Position numbers and translations under genes: made by a program. From IMG/VR virus record IMGVR_UViG_3300018416_000155, positions 1 through 20,128 of that record: 20,128 bases of DNA; one strand, written 5' to 3'. Shown one piece after another: positions 1 through 8,360 of the stretch. The notes beneath the pieces were generated by a model. That model made no database searches. It was not told where the DNA came from and worked only from the letters and a program-made list of their open reading frames with translations. Source of the DNA: a virus. Positions within the stretch are counted from its first letter, which is position 1, and each line of letters begins with the position of its first letter.

Positions 1-57
1 ATTTGTTGTTCTGATGATGATAGCACCGTTCTTATCGTAAATTGTATACCACTTCAT
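1..57 (-). CDS. Partial hypothetical protein, N-terminus only
   Basis: The minus strand opens an ATG at 57 whose first bases overlap the stop of the next gene upstream in an ATGA arrangement (TGA at 56-54). Such an overlap is typical of translationally coupled phage genes. Nineteen codons are visible, starting MKWYTIYDKNG, before the window ends. The short beta-like start has no recognisable family. It is the last visible member of the leftward operon of envelope proteins, so its product may belong to the same complex. Only the overlap and the open frame support it. Confidence 0.5.
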   Translation of the reverse strand, partial: MKWYTIYDKNGAIIIRTTN

Positions 58-515
58 AGTATACTCACAAAGCCAGCAATTAATACACCACAGAATATAA
101 AGAAACCCGCAATAGCAGCTACATCAATATAAAATGCTTTTTTACGGGCTGCCTTTTCTGCAGCTATAATTCTTTGCTGACGAATAAGTCTGCGCTCTTT
201 CATCATATCTTCATAAAACTGTTGTTGACCAGTATAAAGAAGAAATTCGTAAAGTTCTTTTTCTAGTTGTTTTATTTTATGACGAGCAGCGGTAACTTGT
301 AGCGCTTGTGCTTCTACACTGTTACCACCGAATAATTTGCCCACCATTGATGGGTTTGTTGCATGTTGATTGGCTTCTGCTAGTGTTTCTTTCGCATCAA
401 AGAATTTTGCAAAAACATCATACATATCTTGGACTTCTTGTCCTTTCTCAATCGCTCCTTTAATCATATTAAAAGCAGAACCAGCCATCGACAACGCGGC
501 TGCTATTTCTACCAT
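54..515 (-). CDS. Hypothetical protein with coiled coil and C-terminal membrane helix
   Basis: A 153-residue protein. Residues 1-60 are helical and moderately hydrophobic, residues 75-125 are rich in Lys, Glu, Gln and Arg and look like a helical or coiled-coil rod, and residues 128-152 form one strong membrane helix ending at the C-terminus (FYIDVAAIAGFFIFCGVLIA). There is no signal peptide, so the likely topology is a cytoplasmic body held in the inner membrane by a tail anchor. It lies 5 bp after the preceding signal-peptide gene and overlaps the next gene by ATGA. It is the only integral membrane candidate without a signal peptide in this operon. I infer it could be the inner-membrane part of an envelope complex. 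A holin-like role is less likely, because there is one long rod and only one membrane segment. Confidence 0.75.
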   Translation of the reverse strand: MVEIAAALSMAGSAFNMIKGAIEKGQEVQDMYDVFAKFFDAKETLAEANQHATNPSMVGKLFGGNSVEAQALQVTAARHKIKQLEKELYEFLLYTGQQQFYEDMMKERRLIRQQRIIAAEKAARKKAFYIDVAAIAGFFIFCGVLIAGFVSIL

Positions 516-520
516 TATGA

Positions 521-982
521 TTATTCCTTATCTGTATTACCTGCCATTACACTTGGTGCCGTCGGAGCTTCAAACTGTAAGTTCCGAAGGTTTTGTATCT
601 CGCGCTGTAACTTCAGTACTTCGAGTCGTTTCTTTTCTAACTCGAGTTTATATAATACATTACAATTGAGTCTTTCTTTTGGCGCGCCGATAGGAATCGT
701 AATTCTACCGTATACACCTATATCTCTCATAAAATCATCTTGTTGGAAATTGTACATCGGATCCAAATTATTATAATACGGATCGTTTTGGTTCAGTATG
801 CCAACAACACCAAACTCTACATTCGTAGATGAACCAATTGCTGCTGAACATTCTAGATCACCAGCTCGTATTCTGTCTGACTGAAAACTCTGTGGAGAAT
901 TCGGTATAGCTAAGTTGATACCATTCGACTGAGCATATGCAAAGCATGGAAATAGTATCAGCAATGTCAATAATCTTTTCAT
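521..982 (-). CDS. Secreted protein with two cysteines and C-terminal coiled coil
   Basis: A 153-residue protein with a clear Sec signal peptide (basic MKR, hydrophobic LLTLLILFPCF, cleavage near AYA|QS at residue 17). The mature part has a Gly/Ile/Asn-rich domain (residues 20-105) containing RIRAGDLECSAAIGSS and GVYGRITIPIG, then a charged amphipathic helix at about 110-137 that should form a coiled coil. The only cysteines in the mature protein, C45 and C107, could pair in the periplasm. My impression is that proteins of this type recur in marine phages, but I know no function for them. The start overlaps the previous stop (ATGA at 982-979), so it is probably translated together with its neighbour. 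A periplasmic or outer-membrane location is inferred from the signal peptide. Confidence 0.8.
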   Translation of the reverse strand: MKRLLTLLILFPCFAYAQSNGINLAIPNSPQSFQSDRIRAGDLECSAAIGSSTNVEFGVVGILNQNDPYYNNLDPMYNFQQDDFMRDIGVYGRITIPIGAPKERLNCNVLYKLELEKKRLEVLKLQREIQNLRNLQFEAPTAPSVMAGNTDKE

Positions 983-1350
983 TTTATTTTAGAACATATC
1001 CTAGAAGAAACCAAACTCGCCGTCTCATTAGACTTTACGTGTAAAGATCGAGAACAAATATATCTTACACGAGGCAAATCACCCTGTCTTATGTATATAT
1101 TTATCTTCTTCCTTTCTAAATATTTGACTGGTGTATTTCTTTCTTGTGCTGCCCATGGGACATGAGCCCATTCGTCATCAAATACTTCGAAGGTATAGTA
1201 GTTAACATCGGCACGAGAATTCCATAGCTCCATTTCAGCTACGTAAATTCCGTCGACAAATGAGGGTTCGAGATCTGGGTAGGTTGGAGTCCATGAATGG
1301 GCCACAACGGGCCCACTCAGGACTAACAATAAGCACATAATATAGCGCAT
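979..1350 (-). CDS. Small secreted Ig-like protein, possible pilus-chaperone-like fold
   Basis: A 123-residue protein with a signal peptide (hydrophobic MCLLLVLSGPVV, cleavage near VAHS at residue 17-18). The mature part is beta-rich: AEMELWNSRADVNYYTFEVFDD followed by YLERKKINIYI and VRYICS. This strand pattern resembles the N-terminal domain of PapD-type periplasmic chaperones, although the usual second domain is absent and I see no diagnostic chaperone signature. Cysteines C99 and C119 could form a disulphide near the C-terminus. It sits directly beside a pilin-like secreted protein, which is the main reason to consider a chaperone or assembly role. That role is inference. The secreted location is well supported and the fold is tentative. 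Confidence 0.75.
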   Translation of the reverse strand: MRYIMCLLLVLSGPVVAHSWTPTYPDLEPSFVDGIYVAEMELWNSRADVNYYTFEVFDDEWAHVPWAAQERNTPVKYLERKKINIYIRQGDLPRVRYICSRSLHVKSNETASLVSSRICSKIK

Positions 1351-1354
1351 GATT

Positions 1355-1852
1355 TTAGATCGCTATACAGTTAGCCTGTACAATCGCGGTGTATGTGCCA
1401 CCAGGAAGTGCTTTGCTAACGCCGTAATCGGCTTCTGAACTAACCTTAAACCAAGTGCTACCAGTAAATTCGAGATCTACTTCAGTAGTAGAATCATATT
1501 CGATTTTACTCGTGTCATATGCAGACATCTGAGCATCAGACACAGCTTCTACAGCAGTAGAACCGGTCCAAGCAACAGTATCTGAAAGCGCAGGACTTTG
1601 TGAGAATGAAGAAGGATGAGTGATAACAGCCTTATAAGCGTCAGCGATAACTACATCGTAACGAACAACAGGCTCAACACCGCCGTCAGCAGCATCAGTT
1701 GATAGGATACTAGCTGATGGGTTACCGTAAACACCCTGCTTATCGAGAGTTACTACACACTTAGATTCGACATTGCCCACGATAGGAGCATCGAGTGCTT
1801 GTACACTCATTGCTGATACCGCAATTGCTGCAGCCAAAATTTTCTTGAACAT
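1355..1852 (-). CDS. Secreted two-cysteine protein resembling a pilin or spore-coat-U subunit
   Basis: A 165-residue protein starting with a textbook signal peptide (MFKKILAAAIAVSAMSVQA, cleavage after residue 19). The mature protein is acidic, Ser/Thr/Ala-rich and beta-strand-rich, with no lysine-rich region. It has just two cysteines, C32 near the mature N-terminus (ESKCVVTLDKQGVYGNP) and C162 near the C-terminus (PGGTYTAIVQANC). An N-terminal Cys followed by a C-terminal GGTYTA strand is reminiscent of fimbrial and spore-coat-U type subunits, where one disulphide holds an Ig-like fold. Here the second Cys lies in the last strand, which is not the usual placement, so the match is only suggestive. 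Its start shares one base with the preceding stop (TAATG), which indicates coupling. It could alternatively be a soluble periplasmic protein. Confidence 0.8.
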   Translation of the reverse strand: MFKKILAAAIAVSAMSVQALDAPIVGNVESKCVVTLDKQGVYGNPSASILSTDAADGGVEPVVRYDVVIADAYKAVITHPSSFSQSPALSDTVAWTGSTAVEAVSDAQMSAYDTSKIEYDSTTEVDLEFTGSTWFKVSSEADYGVSKALPGGTYTAIVQANCIAI

Positions 1853-2733
1853 TAACGTTCTCCTTTATATTGTGATTTGACTAATTTATCATGAAGTAAG
1901 TCTTGTGCAAATTGCAATCTGCGTCCCCGATTATTTCTAGGCAACGCAGCATCTTTGAGTTGAATTGTTTCATTATAAACAGTGTCAGGTAATTGGTCAT
2001 AATATACATTCGTAAATGCATTCAATGCCATTACTTGATTATGTCTAGCAGTATCTTGAGCATTCTGTAACGATCTATTCGCTATACCTAAAACTGTCTC
2101 AAGATCAACCTCTTCCTCTGCATCTTCTTCTTTTGCAACTTCCTGTCGCTCGCGTTCATCTTCATCTTCATCACGCATAGTCATCTCTCTGTCGATCTCG
2201 TCTTGCACAAACGTATCGTCGAGTGGATCTACTACTTCAACTGATGGGATATCGGGTATTTCTACCTGATAACCAGGACACGATGGATCCGCTTGCGGAT
2301 CAAAGCATGTATCATACTGATAAGTGTAAATCACTGATGGGTCTGTAACTTTACCGTCACCTTCCCATGTTATTTCTCCATCTCCCCAATAATCGATAGG
2401 AATTCCACCAACACCGATTACTTTGAAGATAGAGTTACCAGGCAATCCTGTCCAGTCGTCGGTTTCTCGAAAGATATATCCACCGTCGACTGCGTTTTCG
2501 TTTTGTATTGTGACAAGTAAAGGATCTTCAGGATTCTTGACTGTCGTGTACCGATACAAAACTTGATTGACTTGCAATCCTGTTTGTTGAGGCAATAGGT
2601 TTTCCATAACCCATGAATAGCCATTCTGAGCTGCATTGGTCGTTTGACCAAATACTTGTTCAGAGTAAGAGTAAGAGTGCCAGCAGACCAGCGACACCGC
2701 CACCAGCCATTGCTGTATCCTTCGTATTCTCAT
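1852..2733 (-). CDS. Secreted acidic protein, beta domain plus charged helical region
   Basis: A 293-residue protein. Residues 1-24 form a signal peptide (basic RIRR, hydrophobic LVAVSLVCW, cleavage near SYS|E). Residues 55-145 are a beta-rich domain with GLPGNSIFKVIGVGGIPI and DYWGDGEITWEGDGKVTDP. Then C143 and C152 bracket a short loop, residues 175-212 are extremely acidic (about half Asp/Glu), and the C-terminus is a basic helix. The start at 2733 is supported by a good GAGGG ribosome site just upstream. It overlaps the last 74 bases of the previous gene in another frame. I recognise no family; by location it belongs to the same envelope-protein operon. Confidence 0.8.
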   Translation of the reverse strand: MRIRRIQQWLVAVSLVCWHSYSYSEQVFGQTTNAAQNGYSWVMENLLPQQTGLQVNQVLYRYTTVKNPEDPLLVTIQNENAVDGGYIFRETDDWTGLPGNSIFKVIGVGGIPIDYWGDGEITWEGDGKVTDPSVIYTYQYDTCFDPQADPSCPGYQVEIPDIPSVEVVDPLDDTFVQDEIDREMTMRDEDEDERERQEVAKEEDAEEEVDLETVLGIANRSLQNAQDTARHNQVMALNAFTNVYYDQLPDTVYNETIQLKDAALPRNNRGRRLQFAQDLLHDKLVKSQYKGER

Positions 2734-3265
2734 CTATTCCCTCATCTTTTTTTTCGCCAGGTTCTACTGTCTTGCCGTCGGCAAGCCACGCAGCTTTGGC
2801 TTCTGGACCAATCAGTCCGTCATAAGGGCATGGTGTACCAGCATTCATCATTGCATCGAATACTCTTTCGTCAGTACACATCAGTGACACAGCTGCCACT
2901 TTCATACCCATATCATATAGAGTTTTGGCATTCTTCAGTCGTTCACAGTTTTCATCAGTAAATTGAGTACCTGTAGAAATACCGAGAATTTGTGTTTGTA
3001 CTGCTCCAGCTACACCAAAAGTACAAAGATCAGAGTTCGATGTATTGATAGTTGGTGTAATCGCCGATGCAGGAGGCGACTTCAGTGTTGTAGTCGTGCT
3101 GCCATTTGTTGTAACTGTACTTGTAGTTGTCGACTCAGTTCTTATCAGATTGGGATCAACCGCTTCTTCCTCTTGTGCTACTGCTGAGGAACAAGCTAAT
3201 CCTAATAAAACAATCACTAGACCGACGCACACAATCCTTAATAAGCTTGCGTCTAGTTTGTCCAT
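2660..3265 (-). CDS. Secreted cysteine-rich protein with Thr/Ser linker and hydrophobic C-terminal tail
   Basis: A 201-residue protein, first in the leftward operon. Residues 8-30 form a signal sequence with a likely cleavage at AVA|QEEE. Residues 43-62 are an almost pure Ser/Thr linker. Residues 78-150 form a compact domain with four cysteines (C81, C107, C130, C146), including the segment GAVQTQILGISTGT and KTLYDMGMKVAAVS. The protein ends in a 17-residue hydrophobic stretch (AMAGGGVAGLLALLLLL) that could anchor it in a membrane. My impression is that this central domain recurs in marine myophages, and I know no function for it. The segment DGLIGPEAKAAW loosely recalls peptidoglycan-binding repeats, but this is too short to claim. 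A late promoter lies about 72 bp upstream. Confidence 0.8.
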   Translation of the reverse strand: MDKLDASLLRIVCVGLVIVLLGLACSSAVAQEEEAVDPNLIRTESTTTSTVTTNGSTTTTLKSPPASAITPTINTSNSDLCTFGVAGAVQTQILGISTGTQFTDENCERLKNAKTLYDMGMKVAAVSLMCTDERVFDAMMNAGTPCPYDGLIGPEAKAAWLADGKTVEPGEKKDEGIDENTKDTAMAGGGVAGLLALLLLL

Positions 3266-3336: not shown

Positions 3337-3344
3337 TATTTATA
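3337..3344 (-). promoter_or_regulatory. T4-type late promoter for the secreted-protein operon
   Basis: The minus strand reads TATAAATA, the consensus recognised by the T4 sigma factor gp55 with gp33. It continues as TATAAATAC and lies about 72 bp before the ATG at 3265. An intergenic position, correct orientation and exact consensus make this the best placed late promoter in the window. It implies that the envelope proteins are made late, together with virions. Confidence 0.65.
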
Positions 3345-4742: not shown

Positions 4743-5729
4743 ATGGCACATATGGTTGAAACAATGGCGTACGCAGGTGAAGTTCCTTGGCACGGTTTAG
4801 GTATCAAGGTAACAGACGATCTGACGCCTCAAGAGATGATGAAGGTTGCTGGTCTCGATTGGTCAGTAGATCGTCATCCTATTACTACGCTGGTAGATGG
4901 TGAAGAGATCACTATCGAAGGTAAAAAAGCTTTGGTTCGTTCGTCCGATAACAAAGTACTCGACGTTGTAGGAGATCAGTGGATCCCAGTCCAAAATGCT
5001 GATGCATTCGAGTTCTTTGACGAGTATGTTAAGGCTGGCGGCATGACGATGCACACTGCTGGATCGTTGAAAGATGGCCAGATTGTTTGGGGACTCGCTA
5101 AGATTAACGAATCTTTTTCTCTCTTTGGCGGTAAGGATCAGGTAGACTCCTACCTCTTGCTGTCAAATCCACATAATTATGGTCGCGGTGTCGATGTTCG
5201 ATTCACACCCATTCGGGTCGTTTGTAATAACACCCTGTCAATGTCTCTCGAAGGCAAAGCATCGCTCGGTATTTCTCTGAATCACAAGTCAGAGTTTGAC
5301 GCAGAGCGTGTCCGCCTTGCTCTCGATGAGGCATCTAAGAAGATGGAAACATACCATGAAATGGCTGATTTTCTGTCGAAGAAGTACTACAAGCAAACTG
5401 AACTGTTTGAGTACTTCAACCAAGTCTTCCCTGTTACCACCAATCGTGCTGGTACAATGGACTTTGACGAGCTTATGAAGTCATTCCAAGAAGGTAAGAA
5501 AGCTGGTTCGCGTAACGCTCGCACTGCAATGGACATCATTAACACTCAACCTGGTGCATCACTTGCCGAAGGTACATGGTGGAATGCTTACAACGCAGTG
5601 ACTTACATGACTAATCACACTCTCGGCAACAGTCAAGATACTCGACTGCAGTCAGCTTGGTTTGGTCATAATAAGAACACGAACATCAACGCTTTGGGTA
5701 TGGCAATTGAATACGCTCAAGCAGCGTAA
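4743..5729 (+). CDS. DUF932 / phage-plasmid-like protein (TIGR03299 type)
   Basis: A 328-residue protein whose N-terminus (MAHMVETMAYAGEVPWHGLG) is the hallmark of the DUF932 family (TIGR03299), known in phages and plasmids but without an established biochemical role. Further family features are IPVQNADAFEFFDEYV, the central FTPIRVVCNNTLSMSL and the C-terminal TWWNAYNAVTYMTNH. The length is close to the usual 300-350 residues, so it looks complete. It has its own promoter (P3), a strong AGGAGGG ribosome site at 4728-4734, and its own terminator, so it is a single-gene unit that may be strongly expressed early in infection. Family assignment is firm, function unknown. Confidence 0.9.
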   Translation: MAHMVETMAYAGEVPWHGLGIKVTDDLTPQEMMKVAGLDWSVDRHPITTLVDGEEITIEGKKALVRSSDNKVLDVVGDQWIPVQNADAFEFFDEYVKAGGMTMHTAGSLKDGQIVWGLAKINESFSLFGGKDQVDSYLLLSNPHNYGRGVDVRFTPIRVVCNNTLSMSLEGKASLGISLNHKSEFDAERVRLALDEASKKMETYHEMADFLSKKYYKQTELFEYFNQVFPVTTNRAGTMDFDELMKSFQEGKKAGSRNARTAMDIINTQPGASLAEGTWWNAYNAVTYMTNHTLGNSQDTRLQSAWFGHNKNTNINALGMAIEYAQAA

Positions 5730-5735
5730 GGGTTT

Positions 5736-5759
5736 GGCGGTCGAAAGGCCGCCTTTTTT
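5736..5759 (+). terminator. Rho-independent terminator after the DUF932 gene
   Basis: A 7-bp stem (GGCGGTC with GGCCGCC, one G-U pair) closes a GAAA tetraloop and is followed by six T residues. It begins 6 bp after the stop codon at 5729. It separates the DUF932 unit from the gp33 operon. Confidence 0.9.
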
Positions 5760-5764
5760 ACACA

Positions 5765-5772
5765 CATAAATA
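5765..5772 (+). promoter_or_regulatory. Possible late promoter (CATAAATA)
   Basis: One mismatch to the T4 late octamer TATAAATA, placed between a terminator and the ATG at 5800. The expected start point is near 5778, leaving room for the GGAGGA at 5787-5792. Weak on sequence, well placed. Confidence 0.35.
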
Positions 5773-5799
5773 GTATTCCATACTATGGAGGAATATATT

Positions 5800-6129
5800 A
5801 TGGAATTAATTATTGCAGCACTGGTAGCGGTAGCAATTGCCGCATTTGTTTTTTGGCCTCGAGTGAGTGAGAAAATCGATGATGTACAAGAAGACATCAC
5901 CGAAGCTCGTGAAAAGGTTGAAGACGCCATTGATGAAGTAATCGACGATGTCGAAGAAGCAGTTGAAGAAGCATTAGCAAAATTACCGACTAAGGCGCAA
6001 CTGATGAAACTCACGAAGGCAAAGATTGATGAACTTGCAGCCGACTTAGGTATCAAGCTTGATCGACGCCAGACGAAAGAGAAGATGGTTGCTGAACTTC
6101 AAAAGCAAGCTAAAAAAGCGAAACAGTAA
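5800..6129 (+). CDS. Membrane-anchored acidic coiled-coil protein with HeH/SAP-like C-terminus
   Basis: A 109-residue protein. The start at 5800 is preferred over the ATG at 5785 because a GGAGGA ribosome site (5787-5792) lies between them. Residues 2-19 form a membrane helix (ELIIAALVAVAIAAFVFW), residues 22-62 are a strongly acidic helix with heptad character (KIDDVQEDITEAREKVEDAI), and residues 68-100 (LTKAKIDELAADLGIKLDRR) match the helix-extended-loop-helix pattern of HeH/LEM and Rho-N/SAP-like domains, which often bind DNA or protein. An N-terminal anchor and a cytoplasmic HeH domain suggest tethering of something, perhaps DNA, at the inner membrane; that is inference. It is followed after 1 bp by gp33. 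Confidence 0.75.
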   Translation: MELIIAALVAVAIAAFVFWPRVSEKIDDVQEDITEAREKVEDAIDEVIDDVEEAVEEALAKLPTKAQLMKLTKAKIDELAADLGIKLDRRQTKEKMVAELQKQAKKAKQ

Positions 6130-7358: not shown

Positions 7359-8270
7359 ATGAACGATTTCGCATCGCTTAAATCCTCACGTAAGTCTTCA
7401 TTCGATAAGCTTACAGCTGCCGCAGAGAAAGTTGCTGGCAATCAAGTACAGTCAGGTCCTGACGAGCGCTTTTGGAAACCCACAGTCGACACAGCAGGTA
7501 ATGGTTCTGCCATTATCCGATTCTTGCCTGCACCCTCAGGTGAAGATGTCCCGTTTGTCCGATATTGGGATCATGGCTTCCAAGGCCCTGGTGGTTGGTA
7601 CATTGAGAAGTCACTGACTTCTATTGGTCTTGACGATCCTGTCGGAGAATACAACTCTAAGTTGTGGAACTCTGGTCTTGAATCAGATAAAGAGATTGCA
7701 CGTAAGCAGAAGCGTCGTCTTCACTACGTATCAAATATTCAAGTGATCTCTGATCCTGCCAATCCTCAGAACGAAGGCAAAGTCTTTCTCTATGAGTATG
7801 GCAAAAAGATCTTCGATAAGATCAATGACTTGATGCACCCAGCTTTTGAAGATGAGGATGCAGTAAACCCATTTGATTTATGGGAAGGTGCAAACTTCCG
7901 CCTTCGTATTCGTAAAGTCGAAGGTTATCGTAACTATGACAAGTCTGCATTCGATTCTCCGTCTGCACTGTCTAACGATGACTCAGATCTCGAAGCAATT
8001 TGGAAGCAAGAGCATGGATTGGCTGAGTTCCTCGATCAGAAGAACTTTAAGTCTTATGAAGAGCTTCAACAAAAATTGATGCGTGTGCTTGGTGGTCTAC
8101 AGCCTGATAGCGTAGCAGAAGATGTACCGAATGCATCGCCTGCAGCTGCTCCTGTTGAACCAGCTTGGACACCTCCAGCGGTCGAAGCAGAACCTGAGGT
8201 TGCCGCGACTACATCATTCGATGACGATGATGAGTCACTCGATTTCTTTAGGAAGCTAGCTAACGATTAA
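7359..8270 (+). CDS. 32: Single-stranded DNA-binding protein gp32
   Basis: A 303-residue T4 gp32 homologue. The N-terminal basic Ser-rich stretch LKSSRKSS (residues 7-14) corresponds to the T4 LAST motif needed for cooperative binding. The OB-fold core runs from about 40 to 230 with GSAIIRFLPAP, VPFVRYWDHGF, KVFLYEYGKKIFDKI and NPFDLWEGANFRLRIRKVEG. Residues 250-285 form an Ala/Pro linker. The C-terminus is the acidic tail (FDDDDESLDFF) that contacts other replication proteins such as gp59. The protein has no cysteine, so the zinc site of T4 gp32 is absent. AAGGA at 7347-7351 sets the start. The gene has its own promoters and terminator. Confidence 0.95.
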   Translation: MNDFASLKSSRKSSFDKLTAAAEKVAGNQVQSGPDERFWKPTVDTAGNGSAIIRFLPAPSGEDVPFVRYWDHGFQGPGGWYIEKSLTSIGLDDPVGEYNSKLWNSGLESDKEIARKQKRRLHYVSNIQVISDPANPQNEGKVFLYEYGKKIFDKINDLMHPAFEDEDAVNPFDLWEGANFRLRIRKVEGYRNYDKSAFDSPSALSNDDSDLEAIWKQEHGLAEFLDQKNFKSYEELQQKLMRVLGGLQPDSVAEDVPNASPAAAPVEPAWTPPAVEAEPEVAATTSFDDDDESLDFFRKLAND

Positions 8271-8296
8271 TAGCTTGGGAAGCTTAGGGTCGTAGA

Positions 8297-8314
8297 TCTT
8301 CAAAAGCGCGCGGG
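8297..8314 (+). repeat. Direct repeat copy 1 in the gene 32 terminator loop
   Basis: TCTTCAAAAGCGCGCGGG, identical to the copy at 8329-8346. Start-to-start spacing is 32 bp, and the 14-bp gap between copies is CATTGAAATAGATG. A loop with one copy would be an ordinary 18-base terminator loop, so a 32-bp duplication is a simple explanation. Confidence 0.9.
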
Positions 8315-8328
8315 CATTGAAATAGATG

Positions 8329-8346
8329 TCTTCAAAAGCGCGCGGG
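8329..8346 (+). repeat. Direct repeat copy 2 in the gene 32 terminator loop
   Basis: Identical 18-bp copy of 8297-8314, directly abutting the right arm of the terminator stem, as copy 1 abuts the left arm. Confidence 0.9.
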
Positions 8347-8360
8347 TCTACGACCCTTTT

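Follow-up and report, generated by a model that had tools for sequence, protein, structure and literature searches.

A conserved operon of exported proteins in marine phages with a possible role in breaching the host envelope

Introduction

Why should a phage carry five consecutive genes for proteins bearing export signals? The question is raised by IMG/VR virus record IMGVR_UViG_3300018416_000155, the complete 20,128 bp of which make up the window analyzed here, and whose left edge is occupied on the minus strand by an operon of six genes that we designate A to F. The gp32 gene of the window (7359-8270) matches those of Synechococcus phages and other T4-like marine phages. In a survey of 677 phages, no spanin was found in 91, among them 20 that infect Prochlorococcus or Synechococcus, and the means by which such phages open the outer membrane was not settled (PMC6139136). 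Because these 91 phages, many of them marine, were left without identifiable spanins, the conserved, late-expressed module of exported proteins described here is a direct and concrete candidate for outer-membrane opening in spanin-less phages. The operon probably contributes, in a way not described before, to the breaching of the host envelope by these marine phages; should its role not lie in lysis, it would still represent a widespread but unnamed phage system directed at the envelope of bacteria that are abundant in the ocean.

Organization and Conservation of the Operon

The six open reading frames (ORFs) are adjacent, all point leftward, and run from A (2660-3265) through B (1852-2733), C (1355-1852), D (979-1350) and E (521-982) to F (54-515). 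Their junctions are tight when read back from the sequence, as an earlier note on this DNA had described: A and B overlap by 74 nt, B and C meet at TAATG, C and D are separated by 4 nt, D and E share ATGA, E and F lie 5 nt apart, and F is coupled by ATGA to a partial gene at the very edge of the window. The note had also pointed to five consecutive genes with Sec signals, and in a scan of 26 window genes, which used a crude score of hydrophobicity, charge and cleavage site rather than SignalP, A to E were indeed the only genes in which a strongly hydrophobic N-terminal core came together with a non-negative n-region and a plausible cleavage site. One further strong N-terminus, that of the gene at 5785-6129, belongs to an acidic-flanked membrane anchor. 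The tail anchor reported for F is a single C-terminal helix at residues 126-144, and to it must be added a second hydrophobic segment at the C-terminus of A (residues 183-201), which had been overlooked and is present in 50/54 relatives. The coupling of the partial gene to F also holds; the partial gene is the start of a mini-ORF (1-57, minus strand; 32 amino acids [aa] in related locus L084), and the conserved next gene is a different one, designated G.

This organization is maintained among relatives. The search of gene neighborhoods returned a conserved cluster, with A to E colinear, on one strand and tightly spaced in 128/128 related loci that hold all five genes, and the overlap of A and B was kept in 92/92 distinct relatives. 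Comparison with six relatives gave ratios of nonsynonymous to synonymous substitution (dN/dS) of 0.00-0.24 for every gene, and all of the operon genes are under purifying selection. Given the export signals, the dN/dS values, the colinearity and the conserved overlap, the cluster lies far beyond chance.

An exact match to the T4-type late promoter box, TATAAATA, is located at 3337-3344 on the minus strand, 79 nt upstream of the start codon of A. Six such boxes occur in the window where 1.4 would be expected, a number reached in 0/100 shuffles, and in relatives the box likewise precedes A, in 36 of the 79 distinct upstream regions, compared with 2.9% of background 300-nt windows. The recurrence of TATAAATA before A supports the single late promoter that had been proposed, and with it an operon that is late-expressed and co-transcribed. 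The view that these are not known T4 virion genes is likewise supported. No named family was matched by A to F in Pfam, NCBIfam or PADLOC, the clear PHROGs matches were to families of unknown function only, and PDB sequence-profile searches with A to E gave chance matches only.

A Core of Three Genes

G encodes a protein of ~158 aa and is found 3' of E or F in 113/113 loci with enough downstream DNA. In relatives it starts ~80 nt past the end of F, which places it just left of position 1, outside the window. Its single membrane helix is N-terminal and is followed by a coiled coil, and the C-terminus reads NPL without exception in T4-like, pelagipodophage and roseophage homologues. For 47 of 49 proteins, the flanks of the helix favor an N-in/C-out orientation, with the N-terminus in the cytoplasm.

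A reduced module consisting of A, an exported protein in the B position, and G recurs in pelagimyophages, pelagipodophages and roseophages. Among loci of an HTVC115P-like set, A was present in 75/75, B in 71/75 and G in 57/75, and all 80 loci of a CRP-207-like roseophage set carry A, a different exported protein in the place of B, and G. Pelagiphage Mosig shows the A-B-G layout in gp202-gp200, with gp200 ending NPLAG, and two further loci (L208 and L211) hold A-B-G-F without C, D and E. Because other phages have A, B and G but lack C, D and E, sequence comparison identifies A-B-G as the core and C, D and E as extras of the clade to which the window belongs, where they would appear to have been gained rather than lost elsewhere. 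The module is present in hundreds of marine phage contigs as well as in cultured pelagiphages and roseophages, and literature searches returned neither a previous account of it nor proteomic data on the virions of phages that carry it. Near the module, otherwise unrelated marine phages have in common a basic protein with the C-terminal sequence KARHAKNI.KGKxSAAYW (L146, 5558-5884; L157, 4177-4506; L217, 4723-5001).

In A (201 aa), the signal peptide is followed by a Ser/Thr-rich linker, a conserved four-Cys domain (residues ~79-160) and the hydrophobic tail. The protein matches phrog_20531 (E 1.1e-16), and homologues of its four-Cys domain are found in pelagiphages HTVC115P, HTVC023P, HTVC202P, HTVC033P, Baldr and Mosig, in roseophages CRP-207 and CRP-810, and in N4-like Achromobacter phages; those from bacterial assemblies sit in metagenome-assembled genome or single-cell contigs that may be phage or cellular. 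B (293 aa) has its signal peptide encoded within the overlap with A, followed by a beta jelly-roll (residues 53-140), an acidic segment, and C-terminal helices with a conserved H..V..QY end. This C-terminal end is all that HTVC115P gp53, which occupies the B position, has in common with B of the window (weak profile match, E 0.0019). The model of B is poor overall (pLDDT 66.5), and the resemblance of domain 53-140 to carbohydrate-binding jelly rolls is to be read as a hint only; homologues of B in HTVC033P and AP013540 were named carbohydrate-binding by their depositors. Public records likely contain misannotations of these genes, with G homologues entered as lysozyme, a B-position protein as tonB and A as OmpA family (L157, 3292-3873; L158, 7219-7641; L156, 6272-7378; L158, 5833-6588). 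Just upstream of A in CRP-810 (L158), an unannotated 86-aa lipoprotein ORF (5615-5875) with an LSAC lipobox carries half of the Cys domain of A (phrog_20531, E 0.007) and is preceded by an 80-aa membrane/coiled-coil gene (5373-5615), and the two form a possible spanin-like pair.

Lysis Genes Near the Core

Lysis genes of several kinds recur beside the core. Mosig carries GTA_holin_3TM (PF11351, over the Pfam cut-off) directly upstream of A, and another relative (G012) has a PF00959 lysozyme immediately upstream of A. Among the window-type loci is a group in which G is followed by a holin-like protein with three transmembrane segments (3TM) and by a PF00959 lysozyme, the latter ~1.2 kb downstream of E. 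An Amidase_2 endolysin lies near A in HTVC033P (E 9e-20), a Peptidase_M15_3 follows A-B in HTVC023P (E 1e-14), the gene order in MW202481 is A, B, holin-like gene and lysozyme, and lysozyme and 3TM holin-like genes are neighbors in the HTVC115P-like set. T7-like AP013540 has A, B and a DUF2730-annotated gene between the tail fiber gene and terL, the slot that is occupied in T7 by the holin and spanin lysis genes. When similar A proteins were collapsed, a lysozyme or holin-like family was located within 6.5 kb in 31/60 window-type, 10/41 HTVC115P-type and 8/23 roseophage-type loci, counts that are frequencies and not a test of enrichment or significance, given that the neighbor families and search seeds were chosen from these very loci. 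The weight of the evidence lies in the recurrence next to A of endolysins whose family varies from phage to phage. Also encoded near G in unrelated phages (L123, 3393-3722; L157, 3870-4226) is a membrane protein with two helices and an EF-hand-like DxDGDG motif, possibly an undescribed type of holin.

Proposed Role in Lysis

Read from sequence, the late promoter box, Sec signals, membrane anchors, conserved A-B-G core and recurring lysis neighbors are consistent with an operon that encodes a trans-envelope complex acting late, at the outer-envelope step of lysis, a functional counterpart of the spanins and not one of their members. We judge the chances that this is its function to be about even. 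Lysis is the best supported of the three roles offered in the earlier note, the others being superinfection exclusion and a surface structure, and the interpretation given in that note is partly supported as a whole. The late-expressed module would act at the end of infection, in Gram-negative envelope lysis beyond the holin and endolysin steps. The complex would be anchored in the inner membrane by G, with its N-terminal helix and its coiled coil in the periplasm, as well as by the C-terminal tails of A and F, and the disulfide domain of A and the jelly-roll domain of B would lie in the periplasm, where B might bind sugars of the cell wall or of lipopolysaccharide. In the clade of the window, the pilin-like C together with D and E would extend the complex. 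After removal of the sacculus by endolysin, virions would be released as the complex collapses or fuses the outer layers. A bolder proposal, which we consider doubtful, is that an undescribed multi-protein trans-envelope machine of T4-like, T7-like, HTVC023P-type and roseobacter phages replaces spanins in breaching the outer envelope of marine bacteria, and that in the clade of the window it includes a pilin-fold subunit that could polymerize by donor-strand exchange without an usher.

The parallels with two-component spanins (lambda Rz/Rz1, T4 PseT.3/PseT.2) lie in G, whose predicted topology follows the i-spanin plan of a short cytoplasmic N-terminus, one membrane helix and a periplasmic coiled coil, and in the late expression, overlapping genes and, in several phages, holin/endolysin neighborhood of the operon. 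Unlike those pairs, however, the operon comprises three to seven proteins rather than two and has no o-spanin lipoprotein within A to F; no conserved lipobox was found in A to E, and an LSGC lipoprotein (cluster c9) is near some relatives only. Because the cassette holds no lipoprotein partner, we do not count the operon among the spanins. The Rz family (PF03245) was over its cut-off in 0/20 records, a weak test given how diverse spanins are. Unimolecular spanins such as T1 gp11 resemble A in combining an export signal with a membrane segment at the C-terminus, and B in having a beta-rich periplasmic domain, but A has a signal-peptidase-I-type site, no conserved lipobox and conserved Cys, whereas the surveyed unimolecular spanins have no Cys (PMC6139136). 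A precedent of another kind is the lysis pore proposed for the CsgGF proteins of Melnitz (PMC9004378), also a set of exported phage proteins, for which regulation of lysis in streamlined marine hosts has been proposed, although the protein families differ from those of the operon.

Several observations weigh against a role in lysis. Neither a lipobox nor a known lysis domain is present in any of the components, and about half of the loci are without a recognized lysis gene nearby. The PF00959 lysozyme is separated from the cassette by ~47 kb in the closest long relative of the window (G001) and by ~17-68 kb in six further long relatives; T4-like phages leave their lysis genes unclustered (PMC6139136), and we therefore regard these distances as neutral. 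The earlier note had named homologues occurring singly and unlinked as grounds for abandoning a joint function, and this is found in part: the A domain of N4-like JWDelta stands alone, away from any A-B-G partners, and A, B and G occur elsewhere without C, D and E.

Alternative Roles

The Sec export and membrane anchors, and the carbohydrate-binding-like jelly roll of B, would suit superinfection exclusion or envelope remodeling, in which a coating or modification of the periplasm or outer membrane by the exported proteins would block injection by other phages. However, expression from a late promoter would come late for exclusion, several groups of phages have the core together with holin-like and endolysin genes, and searches against defense models gave no match beyond coiled-coil noise in G. 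We therefore think this role unlikely.

Somewhat less likely again is a surface fiber, an idea that rests on C (165 aa). C has a signal peptide and a predicted Ig-like, pilin-type beta-sandwich with an N-terminal strand ending GxVxxxC, and its AlphaFold2 model is confident (pLDDT 89). The best PDB matches in Foldseek were the CFA/I pilin CfaB, FimG/FimF and the PapG pilin domain (prob 0.9-1.0, E >=5e-3, TM ~0.4), and C is accordingly predicted to fold like a pilin. The N-terminus of mature C, APIVGNVESKC, presumably has the spacing of a pilin donor strand plus first strand. On this account, C would polymerize by donor-strand exchange like a chaperone-usher pilin with D and E assisting, and the fiber would aggregate cells or capture siblings, as proposed for phage curli; fiber genes have precedent in pelagiphages (PMC7029224, PMC9599517). 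Unlike the chaperone-usher systems of type 1 and P pili, however, the cassette has no usher-sized gene and no recognizable chaperone, and C has conserved Cys near both of its ends, no fimbrial Pfam match and no sequence-level match to pilins. The fimbrial family PF00419 had no match in the sampled marine gammaproteobacteria, and BFVD held no informative relative of C. D (123 aa), which consists of a signal peptide and a small conserved domain whose conserved Cys pair lies close to the C-terminus, matches no significant named family; a likeness to PapD chaperones suggested by eye was rejected at an hhalign probability of 0.4% against PapD_N proteins. Furthermore, some phages carry the A-B-G core but lack C, D and E. 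The remaining members of the operon are E (153 aa), with a signal peptide, a conserved SSTNVEFGVVGIL..DVGVY..I.IP.GAP, a long helix-like segment at the C-terminus and a weak match to phrog_37374 (E 2.2e-6), and F (153 aa), which is helical and is found in a subset of relatives.

We consider it improbable that these are virion or virion-assembly proteins with incidentally hydrophobic N-termini. The late promoter, the baseplate genes close by, and several podophage copies of the module near capsid or tail genes would fit such a role, but five successive genes with canonical export signals and conserved cleavage-like sites would not, nor would conserved Cys as expected of periplasmic proteins, and T4-like virions assemble in the cytoplasm.

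Marine phages do carry CsgG and CsgF near gp32 (PMC7029224), as in the curli type VIII secretion operon of HTVC008M (gp014-gp019; L161, 7562-13807), which lies between gp32 and the tape-measure gene and shares with the operon a T4-like marine phage background, phage-encoded exported proteins and proximity to gp32. The earlier note had suggested that a CsgG-like gene could lie left of the window. This was not borne out: in 39 of 40 records, including a 160-kb relative, there was no match to CsgG (PF03783, E 0.01), the sole positive being the control HTVC008M (1.8e-54), and relatives carry G and then unrelated genes at that position. The two operons differ in all of their proteins; profiles of A to G did not match CsgF of HTVC008M, its curlin-repeat proteins likewise have no counterpart among A to G, and a 7-8 bit overlap of A with gp016, a true curlin-repeat protein, was rejected as low-complexity Ser/Thr-rich sequence. 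That the operon is part of a curli secretion system is thus largely refuted, and we give the idea hardly any credence. The slot of the HTVC008M curli genes corresponds in the window to 8271-8360, between gp32 and a large minus-strand gene, and is empty here.

On the plus strand, the operon divergent to A to F includes the gene at 5785-6129, which encodes a 114-aa protein consisting of the N-terminal membrane anchor noted above, an acidic coiled coil and a SAP/Rho-N-like C-terminal end.

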